28,348 nucleotides of DNA from a virus. Below are positions 2,375 through 17,136 of the stretch, piece by piece. Position 1 is the first letter of the stretch. Every line of letters starts with the position of its first letter. The notes beneath the pieces are model-generated. The model did not search any database. It was given only the letters and a program-made list of their open reading frames with translations, and had not been told where the DNA came from. Where the stretch lies: positions 1 to 28,348 of the IMG/VR virus record IMGVR_UViG_3300029267_001722; one strand, 5' to 3'. A program made the position numbers and the translations under genes.

Positions 2375-2863
2375 TCATACGAGTAACCGCTTGCGGATTT
2401 CCTCGGCAAAGGCGGGGTAGAGTTTGTCCCGGACTGCCTCCTGGAGGTGCTCCTGCGAAAGGCCGAAAAGATTGCCATACTTCTCTGTGAGTAATGGGAC
2501 CTTTGGGTCGGTCGAGGTAAAGGTTGCGCTGTCGTTGTCAATTTGTAATGTGAAACCGTCGAATAGTCCGCCGGTCCATTGGAAGTTGTACGGCTGCCCC
2601 TCAACCTTCGGTTGGATAGGGCGGGGGCCGTCCCCGAATAATGCCTCCAGCTCGGTGCTGCGGGCGTATGTGCCCAAGAGTTGCCCCTCGGGGTTTTTCC
2701 CCGCTTCGAGCTGAATAAGGTTTAGGTCTACGAGGTACGCCTCAAAGCGGCGAACCACCTCAAAAAGCACCCCGTAGACCGCCTCCTTATTATTGAGGGT
2801 CCTTACCCTTTCCTGCACTTGCGGTATTGTTGCCACCGGCAGTAAGTTTTTCAGCACCCTCAT
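2375..2863 (-). CDS. Tail assembly chaperone-like protein, first ORF (gpG position)
   Basis: 162 aa from the ATG at 2863 (MRVLKNLLPVATIPQVQERV), ending RKRLLV. It follows the tail tube gene and a 68-aa ORF, and precedes the presumed gpT-like ORF and the tape measure. I do not recognise a specific family; the chaperone label rests on position. The N-terminus overlaps the 68-aa gene by 74 nt, so a later GTG start (QVQ, near residue 16) is possible. An upstream in-frame ATG at 2887 would lie even deeper in the neighbour and is unlikely. The C-terminal codons overlap the frame of the downstream ORF, and the stop is TGA followed by C, a weak termination context. Confidence 0.55.
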   Translation of the reverse strand: MRVLKNLLPVATIPQVQERVRTLNNKEAVYGVLFEVVRRFEAYLVDLNLIQLEAGKNPEGQLLGTYARSTELEALFGDGPRPIQPKVEGQPYNFQWTGGLFDGFTLQIDNDSATFTSTDPKVPLLTEKYGNLFGLSQEHLQEAVRDKLYPAFAEEIRKRLLV

Positions 2864-2996
2864 CCTTCCCGTAGTGCTCCTCCACAAGGGTTTTCACCTC
2901 CTTGTCAGAAACCTTCGGGTATCGGTCTTTCACGAAAGCCGCGAACTCGCCCGCGCTCTTCTTCAGTACGGATTTTCCAAAAGTGTACTTAGCCAT
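2790..2996 (-). CDS. Small lysine-rich tail-region protein, unknown function
   Basis: 68 aa, ATG start, beginning MAKYTFGKSVLKKSAGEFAA. It is a soluble, helical, basic protein with a Gly/Ala/Asn-rich C-terminal tail (TAGGNNTASAGKG). It lies 12 nt after the tail tube stop and overlaps the following ORF by 74 nt. The size and place suit a small tail-completion or chaperone accessory protein. No family is recognised. Confidence 0.55.
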   Translation of the reverse strand: MAKYTFGKSVLKKSAGEFAAFVKDRYPKVSDKEVKTLVEEHYGKDEGAEKLTAGGNNTASAGKGKDPQ

Positions 2997-3008
2997 ATCT
3001 GCTCAGAT

Positions 3009-3911
3009 TTACGTGGTTGAGATCCGCACCTGGTCCATGTAGTACAGGACCCCGGCACTCGCCACGTCGGTAATGCCCGAGAACCGGACATAAGCCAGCG
3101 TGAGAGCTGTGGTGATGTTGATCGTATAATCGCTCGCGTTCTCGGTCAGGCTGGCGATAGTCAGCGTGTTGCCGTCCTCGTCGTATGCCTCCAGGTTGCC
3201 GACAACCACACCGCCAAGATGCTCGTCGCCGCAGTCCTTCTTGATCCCCAGGGTAGCGGTCAGGGTGGTGCCATTGCTGGACTCACCGGAAACCACACCC
3301 ACAGCGCTGTACACCTGGTCCACTTCGGAGAAAAGGAAATCGACCTTTACCTCGGCCGGGTTCTTTTCGTCTCCCTCGTTGTCGGAGAAAGTGAAGTCAA
3401 CCGCGGTGTATTCAACCGGGGTCTCGGTGGTGGGTACGCTGCGGTTGCCCACGAAAATCTGGGACAACGCCCGCCCGCGGATGGCTCCGTCGTCCATGGA
3501 GCGGCCGATCACGTACCCGTTCTTGGTGCGGATAAAAAGGCGGCCGGTCTTCCCGGACATCTTTTTCACCTCCGCATGGGAACAAGCGCAGATCACGCTC
3601 TCGGAGCGGATTACCTTGGTGGCGGCCACGGTCTCCTCGCGGATGTCCAAAGCCTGGTCTTCAAAGAACTGAGCCTCCGCACTCTGGTCCGAAAACTTGC
3701 CCTTACCGAGGTAGATAAGGTTTCCGGCCGCAACGCCTGCATCCCAGTTGGCCTGGTCTTTCAGCGCGGCAGCGGAAGCAAACTCGAACGAGTCAGCAGC
3801 CCAGAAAAGCTCTGAGTAGGCCCCGGTGATGCCTTTCTTGTCGATGCCACCGGTGGCGACGATAGTGGTGTTAACCGCGCTATCCCCGCAAGCCTCTGTG
3901 TATTTACTCAT
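3009..3911 (-). CDS. Major tail tube protein
   Basis: 300 aa with an ATG start (MSKYTEACGDSAVNTTIVAT). It has a beta-rich composition throughout. The C-terminal third (about 200-300) has Thr/Ser/Gly-rich strands typical of an Ig-like or duplicated tube fold (TLTIASLTENASDYTINITT). It sits after the head-tail connector genes and two small ORFs ahead of the tape measure, where a siphovirus tube gene is expected, and it is large enough to carry a decoration domain. The call rests on position, size and composition, not on an unambiguous motif; it could also be a major tail protein of an unclassified family. Confidence 0.6.
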   Translation of the reverse strand: MSKYTEACGDSAVNTTIVATGGIDKKGITGAYSELFWAADSFEFASAAALKDQANWDAGVAAGNLIYLGKGKFSDQSAEAQFFEDQALDIREETVAATKVIRSESVICACSHAEVKKMSGKTGRLFIRTKNGYVIGRSMDDGAIRGRALSQIFVGNRSVPTTETPVEYTAVDFTFSDNEGDEKNPAEVKVDFLFSEVDQVYSAVGVVSGESSNGTTLTATLGIKKDCGDEHLGGVVVGNLEAYDEDGNTLTIASLTENASDYTINITTALTLAYVRFSGITDVASAGVLYYMDQVRISTT

Positions 3912-3924
3912 CGTATTTTGTTGT

Positions 3925-4404
3925 TTAACAGTTGTTTATATCGTTGAAATCTACCGTACAACTCACCCTCAAAGCGTCCCAGACCTCCGGCGTGGCGTGC
4001 TTGCCGTTTACCGTGTAGTTCGGGAACTTCAAAAAGCTCGTCGTGTCGGGAACAATGCTCGCCAAGTCGCTTGCCTCAATAGCCCGCTCAAATGCGTCCC
4101 ACAAGGGGTAAAGCACCTGGGCAAAAGCAAGGTCGATTCGCTCCACATTAAGCAAGTCGCGGGTCTCCCGGGTGCACAGCACAAACTCTGCATCCCTTTG
4201 GTATCTCGCTCCCATGTCCAGGGAGCGGTCTACCTTGGGCACCGACCAGATCAGGGGGAAGTGCTTGTCCTGATAAACACGCAAGAACGGATCCACATCA
4301 CGCTCGCGGCCCCATTCGTAACGAACGGAGTATGCCACCGAGTTGATGCTGACCGGGGTCATGCCGGCCACTATGTCTCGCATTATTTTATCAAAGTCAA
4401 TCAC
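3925..4404 (-). CDS. Probable tail terminator / tail completion protein
   Basis: 159 aa (MIDFDKIMRDIVAGMTPVSI). The start is GTG at 4404, and its GTGA overlaps the TGA of the upstream connector gene, indicating translational coupling. It lies between the head-tail connector and the tail tube, the usual position of a gpU/gp10-like completion protein, and its length is in that range. No diagnostic motif is visible, so the function is inferred from synteny. Confidence 0.5.
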   Translation of the reverse strand: MIDFDKIMRDIVAGMTPVSINSVAYSVRYEWGRERDVDPFLRVYQDKHFPLIWSVPKVDRSLDMGARYQRDAEFVLCTRETRDLLNVERIDLAFAQVLYPLWDAFERAIEASDLASIVPDTTSFLKFPNYTVNGKHATPEVWDALRVSCTVDFNDINNC

Positions 4405-4904
4405 AGCCCGAACTGGTTTGCGTAGGTGTATGGTTGCCGGAAATCCGCATCGGAAAGGCCGTCTGTCTCCTGGAGGTATTCGAGCAGCGATTGCTCGTGC
4501 CCGTCAATCTCCGAATACAGCCGTACAAAGTTGTTCCATGCCGTCACAAACCGCAGGTTGATGTCCGCCTGGGTTTGCCCCTGGGCGTCTCCTTTCCCGG
4601 CTCCCACCGTGGTGAGGTTTACCTCTGCAAAGCGTAGCCACGCGCAGTATATAAAATAGGGAAGGAGCTCCTTTACCTTGTCATACAGCCCGTCGTATGG
4701 GCTGGCAACGGGGTCAGTTTCCAGGGCGGTCTGAAACGCCTCGTACTGAGTCTTTCCAAGTGCCATCAACAGTACTTCCTTCTCGCTTTGGGCGATGATA
4801 GCCACCAAGTCAGCGTTTTCGGCTTCCCCGACGTTTCCGCTCACCGCGTTCGGGATCCGAAGCGGCCCGGAAGTAAAGTCTGAAGGTTGTACTATTGATG
4901 GCAT
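4401..4904 (-). CDS. Probable head-tail connector protein
   Basis: 167 aa (MPSIVQPSDFTSGPLRIPNA), mostly helical, with the core LLPYFIYCAWLRFAEVNL at about 80-97. Proteins of this size and helical make-up placed shortly after the major capsid gene in Bacteroidota siphoviruses are connector-like (gp6/DUF6712-like adaptors); I assign it on that basis. The stop overlaps the next GTG by 4 nt. Confidence in 'virion morphogenesis' is higher than in the exact role. Confidence 0.5.
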   Translation of the reverse strand: MPSIVQPSDFTSGPLRIPNAVSGNVGEAENADLVAIIAQSEKEVLLMALGKTQYEAFQTALETDPVASPYDGLYDKVKELLPYFIYCAWLRFAEVNLTTVGAGKGDAQGQTQADINLRFVTAWNNFVRLYSEIDGHEQSLLEYLQETDGLSDADFRQPYTYANQFGL

Positions 4905-12788: not shown

Positions 12789-14258
12789 TCACGCAACTTT
12801 TATCGTTCTACTTCCGTTTTGCGCCTCCTCCAGGTAGTGGTCCTTCCACCAAAAGCGCTCAAAATTGTATTGGTACCAGTACGGACTCCAGCCCATCCCG
12901 GAGACAAACTGCTTGACCTCCTCCCACTCGGTGAGGTTGTGTATGACCCAGAAGGGCTTGATGAGCTTCTTTTTCGCCATGTCGATCTTCTCCTCCAGGG
13001 TTGCCCCTTCCGCCCGCTTTCTGAGCTCTGCCGGGTTTAGCAAGGAGAGTCGGGCGAATTCCTGCTCTTCCTTCTCCTTTTGGTCCACCCATCCGCAATA
13101 CTTGCACTCGGTAGCCGCCGCAGGGATAAACGCCTCGCAAGAGCCGCATTGTTTCAGAACCGCCTCGCCTTTGGCCTTCTCCTGTTCCGGAAGCACCTCC
13201 AAAGACCAGGTCCTGGGCTCATGCCAGAAACCCATCCGGGCAATGTTGCCGCCGAAGTCCAGGATATTAAACTCGGTCTTGCCCGGGGCAATGCGGGATC
13301 CCCTCCCGCACATCTGCAGGTAAAGGGGGATGGACTTGGTGGCCCGGTAGAGTATCACCGTGCGGATGGAAGGCTCGTCGAAGCCTTTGGTTAGGATCCC
13401 CACGTTGCACAACACCGCGGTCGAGGTGCGGTTGAACCACTCCAGGGTCTCGCGGCGCTCGCGGTCGCCCACCGTGGCGTCCAGGTGCCGCGCGTCGATT
13501 CCGGCATCAACAAACTCCTGGACCAGCTCCTTGGAGCTCGCCACGTTTGAGGCAAAGACAAGAGCCTTTTGTCCGGGGCTTATGCGCTGGTAGTTTTCAA
13601 CCACCCCCTTGTACAGCTTCGCCTTGGAAAACCGGTCTGCTACGTCGTTCTGGTCAAAGTCCCCCCGGACCGTGCGCACCTCTGAGAGGTCCGCCTCCAC
13701 GCCGTAGTATTTCGCTTCTGCCAGGTGGCCGGCCGCCACCAGCTCGTTAATCTCTACCCCGACCTCCAGGTGGTGGTAGTATTCCCCGAGCTGGTTCTTG
13801 CGGCCTTCCCGCTTCGGGGTGGCTGTAAAACCGATCACCCGGGCCCTGGGGTGGAAGTGCTCAAAGAGTTTGTCGAAGCTCCTCATGTGGGCCTCGTCGA
13901 TTATGACCACCTCCATGTTGCGAAGCCAATGCTGGTAGTCTGCCTTTGAAATCCTGCGGGAGAGCGTCTCTACCATGGCGGTGTAAAGCACCCCGCCCAG
14001 GTACGGCTTGCGCCCGGCTTTTATTTCGATGGGATCCAGGCCGTACACATTAAGGGCTCCCCCCGCTTGGCGCAATAGCTCAATTCGGTCAGTCAGGATA
14101 AGCACTTTGCGCCCGCGATCCACCGCCGACCTCACCATGTGGGTAAAGGTGAAGGTCTTGCCCCCTCCGGTGGGCAGCACGGCAATGATGCGCCGGTTGC
14201 CTTCGCGGATAGCCTTGCGAAGAGATGCAATCAGGGCTTTCTGGTAGTCTCTTAGCAT
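12789..14258 (-). CDS. SF2 DNA helicase (SSL2/RecQ-like DEAH) with zinc ribbon
   Basis: 489 aa from the ATG at 14258 (MLRDYQKALIASLRKAIREG); a TTG nine bases upstream is less likely. The motifs are the RDYQ Q-motif, I PTGGGKT (29-35), Ia LILTDRIELL, II DEAH (121-124), III TATP (145-148), IV ALVFASNV, V TKGFDEP and VI QMCGRGSR (315-322). After the helicase core is a zinc ribbon CGSC...CKYC (Cys371, 374, 385, 388) and a helical C-terminal domain. It is probably the replication helicase or an origin-remodelling helicase: its start lies beside the iteron region and the primase-helicase is on the other side. Confidence 0.88.
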   Translation of the reverse strand: MLRDYQKALIASLRKAIREGNRRIIAVLPTGGGKTFTFTHMVRSAVDRGRKVLILTDRIELLRQAGGALNVYGLDPIEIKAGRKPYLGGVLYTAMVETLSRRISKADYQHWLRNMEVVIIDEAHMRSFDKLFEHFHPRARVIGFTATPKREGRKNQLGEYYHHLEVGVEINELVAAGHLAEAKYYGVEADLSEVRTVRGDFDQNDVADRFSKAKLYKGVVENYQRISPGQKALVFASNVASSKELVQEFVDAGIDARHLDATVGDRERRETLEWFNRTSTAVLCNVGILTKGFDEPSIRTVILYRATKSIPLYLQMCGRGSRIAPGKTEFNILDFGGNIARMGFWHEPRTWSLEVLPEQEKAKGEAVLKQCGSCEAFIPAAATECKYCGWVDQKEKEEQEFARLSLLNPAELRKRAEGATLEEKIDMAKKKLIKPFWVIHNLTEWEEVKQFVSGMGWSPYWYQYNFERFWWKDHYLEEAQNGSRTIKVA

Positions 14259-14267
14259 GATTCCCAA

Positions 14268-14581
14268 AGGTTGACAGTTGACAGCAGGTTGACAGCAGGA
14301 AAAAAAGTGGTGTCAACCTCGCAAACCCCCACAGGACGGGGGATACAAGACGAAGGTTGACAGTAGACAGTAACTATTCTATAAAAGATATTTATTAAGA
14401 GTAGTATTGAAATACTGTATATACATTGTATGTACGAAAAAAACGGTTTTGTATATAGGAAAAGATTTGAAAACGTACTGTCAACCTGTCTACTGTCAAC
14501 CTTTTGCTCTAAAGCCCCGTAAACATTGGGCTTATGAGGTTGACACCACACCCCCAGGTTGGCACAATGTGCTGTCAACCT
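14268..14581. repeat. Iteron array AGGTTGACAG (putative replication origin)
   Basis: Copies of AGGTTGACAG or its reverse complement lie at 14268, 14286, 14311 (rc, 9/10), 14354, 14478 (rc), 14493 (rc), 14537 (9/10), 14556 (8/10) and 14572 (rc), with partial TTGACAG/TAGACAG units at 14278 and 14364. An exact 18-bp inverted repeat (14353-14370 with 14486-14503) brackets an AT-rich core (14371-14485). There is no gene here. The position between the helicase and primase genes supports an origin; function is inferred. Confidence 0.65.
14417..14435. promoter_or_regulatory. Operator-like element 1 (GTATATAC-ATT-GTATGTAC)
   Basis: Two 8-bp near-palindromic half-sites with a 3-bp spacer, inside the AT-rich core. 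It is nearly the reverse complement of the element at 14689-14707, with the two variable bases swapped. Next to it is a perfect inverted repeat AGTATT-GA-AATACT (14403-14416). It is probably bound by the ribbon-helix-helix protein at 14708. Confidence 0.55.
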
Positions 14582-14583
14582 TT

Positions 14584-14617
14584 GGCCTTTTTGGCCCTTT
14601 TTGGCCGTTTTTTGGCC
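14584..14617. repeat. Helically phased T-tract / GGCC repeat
   Basis: Four GGCC units start at 14584, 14593, 14603 and 14614 and are separated by runs of T. The 9-11 bp period equals about one DNA turn, so the tracts would add up to intrinsic curvature beside the iterons. Confidence 0.55.
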
Positions 14618-14688
14618 TCGATCCAGGGCCAAGCGGTCACTTTTTCGAGCTGATTCTTGCCGTTTCGGAGCCTTTTTGTTTTCTTTGT

Positions 14689-14707
14689 GTATATACAATG
14701 TACATAC
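14689..14707 (+). promoter_or_regulatory. Operator-like element 2, touching the RHH start codon
   Basis: GTATATAC-AAT-GTACATAC ends at the base before the ATG at 14708. Half-sites match those at 14417-14435. The position fits autorepression by the ribbon-helix-helix product. No good TTG/TAnnTTTG promoter is obvious. Confidence 0.6.
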
Positions 14708-14911
14708 ATGAAGGCTAAAATTTTCACCTTTAGAGTCTCCCCGGAGCTGATTTCCGCGGTTGAGAAGTACGCCGCCGAGAACGGAATGACTGCCTCCGAC
14801 GTGTTCCGTTTGGGTGCCTCTGAGTACATATCCAAAGAGCTCTCCGAAGCTCGCCTGGAGGCGCTGGTAAGAAAGGCTGTTGCCGACGTGATTGCGGGTA
14901 ATGACTTCTGA
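14708..14911 (+). CDS. Ribbon-helix-helix (CopG-like) regulator on the opposite strand
   Basis: 67 aa from the ATG at 14708; the longer reading from a TTG at 14657 would cover the operator and is rejected. It has RHH architecture: strand AKIFTFRVSPEL (3-14), helix A ISAVEKYAAENG, turn MTASD and helix B VFRLGASEYISKEL, then a short C-terminal helix. It is the only plus-strand gene in the replication block, convergent with the primase (2-nt gap). It is flanked by two palindromic elements, one abutting its own start. I infer an autoregulated DNA-binding protein acting on the origin region, comparable in logic to plasmid copy-control CopG; no toxin partner is present. Confidence 0.75.
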   Translation: MKAKIFTFRVSPELISAVEKYAAENGMTASDVFRLGASEYISKELSEARLEALVRKAVADVIAGNDF

Positions 14912-14913
14912 GC

Positions 14914-17136
14914 TCATAAGATTCCTTCACTATTGGGTTTGTAATAATCCACAACCAGGTACTTGCGCACCACTTGTCCTGCCACCTTTTTCTTGACCTG
15001 CTCAAAGCCCAAAGATTTAAGGACGGCCCCCAGCTTGTTTACATACACGCGCTCACCGGTCCTAAAGTCCAGTTTCTGCTTGATCTCTGAAGCGGAAAGC
15101 AGCGTGGTATTACCTCCTTCGCTGTATGCCGGCTCGAAGTATTTGAGGATCATTTCGGCCTCAAAGGAAATCTGCTCGTTCTTGGTTGTGGACTTATTCA
15201 GGTAGGCAATCTCCTTTTTGGTAAGCATCCAAGCATCGCCTATCTCACGCCACATCCAGTACAGCTCCATAAATAGCTCTGTCTTGTCTATGGCGGCAAA
15301 GCGCTCCAGGTCTATTTTTGTCACGTTCACCGGGATAAGCCGCCGGTTCCCGGTGGGGTCGTTTATGATCTGCTCATCGTTTGAAGTACCACAAAGCACC
15401 GCGTACCTGGGTAGGTCCTCGAAGACCTTTCCGTAAGGGCGGCGCACGGTAAAGGTGTCGCGGCTGGAAATCTCCTTAAACTTCTTGGCCTCGGTTTTGC
15501 TCTTGCCGGAAAACTCGTCGTCCATGATACATAGCTTTTGACACATCAGGATCCCCCCATCCTTTCCTTCGTCCAGCTTGCTCTCTGCATAGTATGGCTT
15601 TAGTTCCGGGGGCCACAGGTCGCGGAAGAACCGGCTTTTGCCCGTGCCTTGTCCCCCGGTAAGCACCAGTACCAGCAGGGAGTAAGTGCCGTGCATCGCG
15701 GAAATAATACCCACAAGCCACCGGGTAAGGAATACCTCCAGGTAATCCGCCTCGGCCTCGTCTTGGGTGATTTCCATCATGTCCAGGTCCGGTTTCTCGT
15801 ACTCAAAACAGTCGAGCAGCTCCTGGACCACCCCGGAGGGTTTCAGGTGCTTGTTCTTTTTGATGAATTCCAGAAACGGGTTGTAGGACTCAATAAGGTC
15901 GGAGTCGATAAGGTCAAGCAGACGGTTCTTGGAGAGCTTGTCGTCTATGGCGTGGAGGGCCTTGCGGTAGATGGTATTGATGTCTCTCTCGTCCAGCGGC
16001 ACCCCGTCCTGCTCCACCTTGCGGGTGATCTCGTTATAGCGCAGGCCCAAGGAGCGGATAAAGGTCTCGATCTCTGTCATGCGGTCGTTGACGCGCTGCT
16101 CCCTGAGCTCCCGGTCTGGCACCTCTTCCATCTGCTCCAGCACCGGGGCAAGGCGCTCTTCCCCGACCCCGTGTATTTTTTCCATGTACTCAATGACCGA
16201 TGCGGCGGCCTCCTTTCGGGATTTGCCGGGGTCCATTTTCACCCGCTGTCGGTAGATGGCCACGGCCTCCCGTGTGGTGGGGGTGGTGGTTTCAATCCCC
16301 GCCTGCTTGCAGTAGTAGAAAAAGGTGCCAATGCTTACCCCTCCGCTGTGGTCGCGCTTTAGGGCTATGTCATACTGAGCGTCGCATCTGGCGCTTTCAT
16401 ACTTGGAGGACTGAGCGGAGACCGCATGAAAATACTCCCGGCCGGACTCTCCAAACTCGGAAGCCAGGGCAAAGGAAATATGCAACCAGCTATGGTAGTC
16501 CTCGGCGATGTTTACGCCCCGGGAGGTAATCTGCTGCAGGATGTGGGCAATGTCCTCGTTGTGGTAGGCGTTTATCCGTGGCGCGGCCTGGGGCTCCCTT
16601 TCCTTTTTGGTAAGGTACTTGCTCCACTTCTTCGAGGCTTTGTTCAAATACAGGTGGGGGTCGTAAGAGATGTACCTCAGTCGCGACACGTCTTTGCCGG
16701 AGGGATCCACCACAACCCCGTATTCATTGGCGAGGTATTTCTCGATGGCCTGAAACGCCTCCAGGTGCTTGGCGGGGCTCACCTTCACGTACCAAACAAG
16801 GCCGAAGCCCCGGATTGAAGTGTGGCAGGCGTAGCAATGCGGGTCCTGCTGCAGGCGCTCGCGCTTATCCAGCAGTCCGGGGTTGTCCTGGTCGTCCAGG
16901 TCTATGCCGATCACCCCGCTGTGGCTGGTAAAATTCTCCCTCCGGCGGCGGCCGTCAAACTGGCCGGATACCGTCACCGATGGGACGTTCTTCTTATCCA
17001 GCCTCCCGTTGCGGACCGCCAGCACCTTGTCCTGCCAGCGGCCCTCTTTTACGTGTTCCAGGTAATCCTCCAGCCCCACGCTGCCTGTTACCCTGCTAAA
17101 CTCTCCACTCTTAAAGTAAGAAATCAATTGCCCCAT
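14914..17136 (-). CDS. Primase-helicase fusion (BT4734-like N-terminus, PriCT-like middle, VirE ATPase C-terminus)
   Basis: 740 aa with an ATG start. Residues 1-165 match the BT4734-like primase-polymerase type: VIGIDLDDQDNPG (75-87) with acidic catalytic residues, HTSIRGFGLVWYV, and DPSGKDVSRLRYISYDP (144-160). About 210-285 is a PriCT-2-like domain (YHSWLHISFALASEFGE ... GTFFYYCKQAGI). Residues 485-640 are the VirE-type ATPase: P-loop TGGQGTGKS (493-501), LCIMDDEF Walker B, SRDTFTVRRPYGK and TGNRRLIPVNV. The C-terminus looks like a winged helix. This layout is typical of Bacteroidota phages and mobile elements and primes and unwinds DNA at replication. The gene ends beside the RHH gene and the iteron region. 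Confidence 0.88.
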   Translation of the reverse strand: MGQLISYFKSGEFSRVTGSVGLEDYLEHVKEGRWQDKVLAVRNGRLDKKNVPSVTVSGQFDGRRRRENFTSHSGVIGIDLDDQDNPGLLDKRERLQQDPHCYACHTSIRGFGLVWYVKVSPAKHLEAFQAIEKYLANEYGVVVDPSGKDVSRLRYISYDPHLYLNKASKKWSKYLTKKEREPQAAPRINAYHNEDIAHILQQITSRGVNIAEDYHSWLHISFALASEFGESGREYFHAVSAQSSKYESARCDAQYDIALKRDHSGGVSIGTFFYYCKQAGIETTTPTTREAVAIYRQRVKMDPGKSRKEAAASVIEYMEKIHGVGEERLAPVLEQMEEVPDRELREQRVNDRMTEIETFIRSLGLRYNEITRKVEQDGVPLDERDINTIYRKALHAIDDKLSKNRLLDLIDSDLIESYNPFLEFIKKNKHLKPSGVVQELLDCFEYEKPDLDMMEITQDEAEADYLEVFLTRWLVGIISAMHGTYSLLVLVLTGGQGTGKSRFFRDLWPPELKPYYAESKLDEGKDGGILMCQKLCIMDDEFSGKSKTEAKKFKEISSRDTFTVRRPYGKVFEDLPRYAVLCGTSNDEQIINDPTGNRRLIPVNVTKIDLERFAAIDKTELFMELYWMWREIGDAWMLTKKEIAYLNKSTTKNEQISFEAEMILKYFEPAYSEGGNTTLLSASEIKQKLDFRTGERVYVNKLGAVLKSLGFEQVKKKVAGQVVRKYLVVDYYKPNSEGIL

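Follow-up and report, generated by a model that had tools for sequence, protein, structure and literature searches.

In phage P4, the alpha protein combines a primase, an SF3 helicase and a C-terminal winged helix that binds short iterons, and these iterons lie in two separate regions, ori and crr. The C-terminal domain of the SaPI Rep helicases recognises iterons directly downstream of the helicase's own gene (PMC7581432), and PICI origins are described as invariably placing an AT-rich region between two sets of iterons (PMC6092414). In the Sulfolobus plasmid pRN1 (orf56/orf904), a non-coding region immediately downstream of the primase-helicase gene is required, and a small repressor controls the copy number (PMC4234260). 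For the phages of the group studied here, we found no origin of replication described in the literature searched.

In the present study, we analyzed a virus contig of 28,348 bases, the whole of which is called the window below. It carries genes for a capsid protein, a portal protein, both terminase subunits, an integrase and an S24-type repressor; the virus is a temperate Bacteroidota phage. Its closest primase homologues in isolates are those of phages of Cellulophaga, Nonlabens and Flavobacterium, and the nearest annotated ones, from Cellulophaga phage phi46:1 and Nonlabens phage P12024S/L, are 54-55% and 43-44% identical, respectively. A primase search of genome contigs found two weak relatives only. 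The stretch of interest, which was originally predicted to be a likely phage origin, is most probably where this temperate phage starts to copy its DNA. As described in that prediction, an SF2 helicase gene lies on its lower-coordinate side, and a plus-strand RHH gene followed by a primase-helicase gene lies on the other. The features of the locus are as follows.

12789-14258, minus strand: SF2 helicase with a zinc ribbon (phrog_16; related to RadD), probably accessory and not the specificity determinant
14268-14581, no strand assigned: candidate replication origin, an AT-rich core with an iteron set on either side, its placement kept in relatives
14268-14295, plus strand: outer right block of three tandem sites (iteron 14268-14277, half copy 14277-14284, iteron 14286-14295)
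14310-14319, minus strand: lone inverted iteron AGGTTGACAC between the inner and outer right blocks
14353-14370, plus strand: inner right block, AAGGTTGACAGTAGACAG, which forms one of the two arms of the exact 18-bp inverted repeat
14371-14485, no strand assigned: AT-rich core, the presumed melting site
14416-14435, no strand assigned: operator-like palindrome TGTATATACATTGTATGTAC in the core, second copy of 14688-14707
14478-14503, minus strand: inner left block (iterons 14478-14487 and 14493-14502, half copy 14486-14493), containing the other 18-bp arm, 14486-14503
14537-14581, no strand assigned: outer left block (iterons 14537+ with one mismatch, 14556+ with two, and 14572-, exact)
14688-14708, plus strand: palindrome TGTATATACAATGTACATACA abutting the RHH start codon, putative autoregulatory operator
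14708-14911, plus strand: RHH/CopG-like protein of 67 amino acids, its gene inserted between the primase gene and the array
14914-17136, minus strand: primase-helicase of 740 residues (BT4734-like_N, PriCT_2, VapE-like SF3), the proposed iteron binder and initiator

The start of the SF2 helicase gene is here corrected to the ATG at 14258, most likely the true start because the SF2 helicases of relatives begin with the same MxLRxYQ-like motif. The array lies about 330 bp 3' of the window's primase gene, with the RHH gene in between. Nine copies of AGGTTGACAG in both orientations had been predicted between 14268 and 14581, and we confirmed six as exact (14268+, 14286+, 14354+, 14478-, 14493- and 14572-) and three as near copies, two with one mismatch (14310- and 14537+, both AGGTTGACAC) and one with two mismatches (14556+, AGGTTGGCAC). 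Three extra half copies are each arranged in tandem with a full copy, at a distance of 7-8 bp (GTTGACAG occupies 14277-14284, and GTAGACAG occupies 14363-14370 on the plus and 14486-14493 on the minus strand), and thus the array has about twelve sites. With one mismatch allowed, the best 9-mer of the array has 9 copies; none of 200 dinucleotide shuffles gave more than 5, and neither did any 500-bp stretch of the window outside the array. No second iteron cluster was found in the 28-kb record, which may be incomplete, and the array region had no match in Rfam. Between the array and the RHH promoter, TTTTTGGCC direct repeats occupy 14582-14613, part of which has a weak terminator score on the plus strand.

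The exact 18-bp inverted repeat was also found as predicted, at 14353-14370 and 14486-14503, with 115 bp between the arms. These 115 bp (14371-14485) are 24% GC, the flanks are 50-51% GC, and the lowest-GC 100-mer of the entire window falls inside this core. GC skew, which had been suggested as a check, showed no clear switch at the array.

The original prediction would have been weakened if the repeats were not conserved in related phages; the arrangement in fact recurs at the same position in many of them, which supports the reading as an origin. After the window and two isolate phages had been added to 80 related primase loci, 79 usable proteins were available, and these fell into 33 clusters. 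To be scored as an array, a 9-mer cluster in the 330 bp 3' of the primase stop had to beat all 30 dinucleotide shuffles; the window was tested on an equal length of 330 bp starting 320 bp further on, past the RHH gene. Twenty-one of the 33 non-redundant members of this VapE-type primase-helicase family, the window included, passed, so that the array is directly 3' of the primase in 20 relatives. In control regions the same test was passed by 0 of 33 and 1 of 33 inside the primase gene and by 2 of 32 upstream. Where no gene intervenes, the array fills the gap from the primase stop to the SF2 helicase start; in most relatives the SF2 helicase gene follows immediately past the array, and in some the array overlaps its start codon. 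The iteron motifs diverge between lineages, and most fit KGTNGWMAG: that of the window is GGTTGACAG, and AGGTTGTAGG, TGTTGTCAG, TGTAGTAAG, TGTAGTCAC and GGTGGTAAG share the common form. In another clade of this primase family, obtained with a separate query, the motifs are of the type TCTGTAAC or ATGTGTAAC.

The test 3' of the primase was failed by twelve of the 33 members, among which are the Cellulophaga phage phi46:1 and the Nonlabens phage P12024S. Among them, L012 had only 409 bp of sequence and L045 and L069 were narrowly below the cut-off; others may have more diverged or relocated origins. In L056, a two-armed CTGTTGCTA array (3669-3945) is relocated to a site 3 kb away from the primase, where it is flanked by a gp3-like packaging gene and an ERF gene, and adjoins neither the primase nor the SF2 helicase gene; in L054, a weaker cluster is present upstream of the primase. 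Repeats near the primase and helicase genes of phi46:1 and P12024S were considered as an origin and rejected as AT-rich and unconvincing. Eight copies of TTAACGTTT in both orientations are also found in phi46:1, beside the integrase gene (L004:1710-2054), and might serve as arm sites of the integrase or as operators of a repressor. In L062 (10478-10675), a 21-bp unit around ATTGATACA is repeated in tandem about ten times downstream of the replication genes. The exact doublet AGGTTGACAGTNGACAG was rejected as a marker of the array: it occurs in five viral contigs, none with a comparable array found, and the gene content there is unrelated in L089, L090 and L091, the contigs with genes listed.

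An alternative explanation is that the array serves purely in the transcriptional control of the replication genes and the origin is elsewhere. The abutment on the SF2 helicase start, extending over the start codon in some relatives, would suit such a role, and promoter-like matches occur within the array, the best of which (14540-14568) uses the TTGACA of an iteron. However, such a match is a trivial consequence of the motif, Bacteroidota promoters are usually of another type, and six to twelve sites in two arms around the lowest-GC stretch, next to a primase akin to initiator helicases, are a better fit to an origin. We therefore consider purely transcriptional control unlikely. It overlaps with the reading as an origin, since binding of an initiator could also autoregulate; and as the array also abuts the SF2 helicase start, a regulatory role besides or instead of that of an origin is possible.

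The layout of the sites is conserved where the sequence is not. When positions are measured relative to the core, with the sign giving the orientation, the right arm of the window reads outward -0 -7 +52 -75 -86 -93, that of L049 reads -0 -8 +50 -74 -85 -93 and that of L042 reads -0 -7 +51 -74 -85 -93; five sites of the window's right arm agree with these two arrays within 2 bp. The primase of L049 is 41% identical to that of the window, the cluster that contains L042 is equally distant, and the origin DNA of neither aligns significantly with that of the window. None of 2,000,000 random layouts agreed with either of these references both in orientation and to within 2 bp, a figure that gives the scale and not an exact probability, as the null treats the sites as independent. 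A second layout class (L029, L057, L067 and L007) is 8-13 bp longer beyond the inner block, about one helical turn, and the inverted single site is found 50-62 bp from the inner block in these four as well as in L049 and L042. The outer elements are present on the left side only in L010 and L024 and on both sides in the window. The fit of L018, L038, L071, L078, L014 and L025 to the layout was only partial; site variants for all layouts were chosen by eye, locus by locus, from the motifs.

Three candidate binders of the iterons had been named, the SF2 helicase, the primase and the RHH protein; we favour the primase, through its C-terminal winged helix. Regarding the SF2 helicase, one could suppose that it is the sequence-specific binder of the origin and that the primase is loaded afterwards, as in herpesviruses: its gene is directly beyond the array in most relatives, and the origin-binding protein of herpes simplex virus is an SF2 helicase (PMC12543377). 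However, loss or change of the array is not accompanied by a change in the identity of the SF2 helicase. In L170, found by a search with the SF2 helicase, this protein, a VRR-NUC protein and an exonuclease are 62%, 61% and 65% identical, respectively, to those of the window; the primase is replaced by another BT4734-like_N protein without a VapE match (2380-4797), and no GGTTGACA or GTAGACAG site was found in this contig. L170 is thus a natural swap, a modular exchange of the initiator. Furthermore, SF2 helicases about 50-56% identical to that of L010 are paired with Prim-Pol/DUF3987 initiators, and the arrays there are different. L188, L189, L190, L191, L192 and L194 encode Prim-Pol/DUF3987 proteins ahead of the SF2 helicase gene, followed by arrays of 10-13 copies of other motifs (TTGGTTCAAT, GTGTAAACT and GGTTTAAAA), apparently a second type of initiator and origin in the same position. 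Two of four such initiators tested had an HTH match near the C-terminus. In the SF2 helicase tree, the Prim-Pol/DUF3987 contigs are nested next to VapE-type contigs, for example L010, whose motif AGGTTGTAGG resembles that of the window and whose SF2 helicase is nearer to that of L192 (55%) than to that of the window (42%). Because related SF2 helicases pair with different initiators and different arrays, the array goes with the initiator and not with the SF2 helicase. Together with the array of L056, which does not adjoin the SF2 helicase gene, these observations make origin recognition by the SF2 helicase highly improbable.

The RHH protein could also bind the array, either as operators or as the partition centromere of a plasmid-like prophage. 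RHH proteins often bind short repeats, the RHH gene adjoins the array, and a 20-bp palindrome (TGTATATACAwTGTAyrTAC) is common to the RHH promoter and the core. However, a check of the other 32 family members, many with arrays, did not reveal the RHH gene, and tblastn against phage records gave one weak match only, to an archaeal virus. The palindrome beside the RHH start codon is TGTATATACA and not GGTTGACAG, so that the likely site of this protein differs from the iterons. An integrase gene is present in the window, and no ParA-like protein was found among the window proteins scanned, which does not favour a plasmid-like prophage. Thus, we regard the RHH protein as a very unlikely binder of the iterons; it probably represses its own gene. 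As for the palindrome, zero copies were expected in 100 shuffles and two are present, one in the core and one at the RHH start. It was also found in 25 viral contigs, in none of which an RHH gene was seen beside it by eye; the palindrome alone is not diagnostic, because it occurs in unrelated contigs without an adjoining RHH gene. More weakly, the copy in the core, this one common palindrome, suggests that the RHH protein may restrain the origin.

The primase-helicase is thus the favoured initiator. It had been stated that no classic Rep protein is encoded nearby, and this holds for the Rep_3/RepE type, for which no Rep_3 match was found among the window proteins scanned against Pfam; however, the adjacent VapE-type SF3 helicase (Pfam VapE-like match, E 3e-30) is of the kind that acts as Rep in PICIs, including SaPIs. 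An AlphaFold2 model of the protein (mean pLDDT 83, pTM 0.52) predicts a C-terminal winged helix at residues 658-730, with the order H-E-H-H-E-E, which was the same when the domain was modelled alone. The best fold match of the full model is PriRep1 with dsDNA (PDB 7pds, E 6e-15), and a profile of the family also matches this entry, described as 'similar to D. nodosus vapE', at the sequence level (E 6e-14). In a fold search with the winged-helix domain, the top matches were DNA-binding and several were winged-helix proteins, with weak scores (E 0.017 or worse). When overall relatedness was removed (partial Mantel test), the winged-helix sequence did not covary with motif differences (partial r 0.06, permutation p 0.33), and L038 and L042 have a near-identical winged helix yet differ in motif (TGTAGTAAG vs TGTGGTAAG). 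Two sub-segments of the winged helix with p 0.001-0.005 were discarded, seven segments having been tested and independent support being absent. We propose that the winged helix is the specificity determinant; since the domain-wide covariation test was negative, this proposal is based on position, predicted fold and analogy.

Taken jointly, these results make it rather likely that a temperate Bacteroidota phage has its replication origin in this array, with the neighbouring primase-helicase as the initiator. The winged helix at the C-terminus of this VapE-type protein would bind the GGTTGACAG sites, of which about six flank the core per side, in fixed geometry; oligomers would form on the two arms, and the 24% GC core would be opened by them. 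The SF3 ring would then load itself onto the opened strands, presumably one per arm, giving bidirectional replication, with primers made by the N-terminal primase domain and assistance from the adjacent SF2 helicase. A more tentative extension, which we think possible and yet doubtful as a whole, is that the array follows a nucleoprotein blueprint for origin melting, common to these phages, in which the geometry and not the sequence is conserved, and that the RHH repressor also holds the core through the operator copy, coupling the prophage state to origin firing. Under such a blueprint, a core of 85-107 bp would have an inner block at each edge, then a single inverted site 50-62 bp out and finally an outer triplet. 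The spacing would fall into two classes that differ by one helical turn, and the arrangement would be confined to one side in some cases and present on both in the window. The locus provides a candidate origin with a candidate binder for a widespread set of environmental phages. The family offers initiator-iteron pairs that have diverged naturally on a single fixed layout. Such a series is well suited to studying how origins are recognised and opened by self-loading helicases, and it is a possible source of new replicons for Bacteroidota genetics.

Among known systems, classic iteron plasmids (RepA/RepE/pi) share with this locus the iterons beside an AT-rich unwinding element; unlike them, the locus has no Rep_3-type initiator among the proteins scanned, and the DnaA box TTATNCACA is absent from the whole window. 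Phages phi46:1 and P12024S/L have the nearest annotated primase homologues, but no comparable array was found 3' of their primases. The plasmid pRN1 is similar in its primase-helicase gene, downstream non-coding region and small repressor (PMC4234260), the RHH protein being the putative repressor here; it differs in that its non-coding region is a 100-nt stem-loop without iterons and its repressor gene is upstream in the same operon. As in the P4 alpha protein, primase, SF3 helicase and a C-terminal winged helix, predicted in our case, are joined in one protein; unlike P4 with ori and crr, the 28-kb record, possibly incomplete, yielded a single iteron region. The closest resemblance is to the pri-rep-ori modules of PICIs and SaPIs, including the fused Pri-Rep of E. 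coli PICIs. These have an initiator helicase of the self-loading type, alone or fused to a primase, as is predicted here, and an origin 3' of the initiator gene with two iteron sets around an AT-rich core (PMC7581432, PMC6092414); SaPI Rep also has a C-terminal DNA-recognition domain (PMC7581432), to which the predicted winged helix would correspond. Unlike PICI modules, the locus has a BT4734-like_N/PriCT_2 primase part, a conserved SF2 helicase past the array and an RHH gene between the primase and the array. Furthermore, unlike a PICI, which is a satellite that lacks capsid genes and depends on a helper phage, the window encodes capsid, portal and both terminase subunits; thus, it is a phage that would work like a PICI replicon and is not a PICI. 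From sequence, modelling and analogy, the best reading is that the array represents the PICI pri-rep-ori kind of origin in a tailed phage, with the two-armed geometry kept and the iterons diverged.
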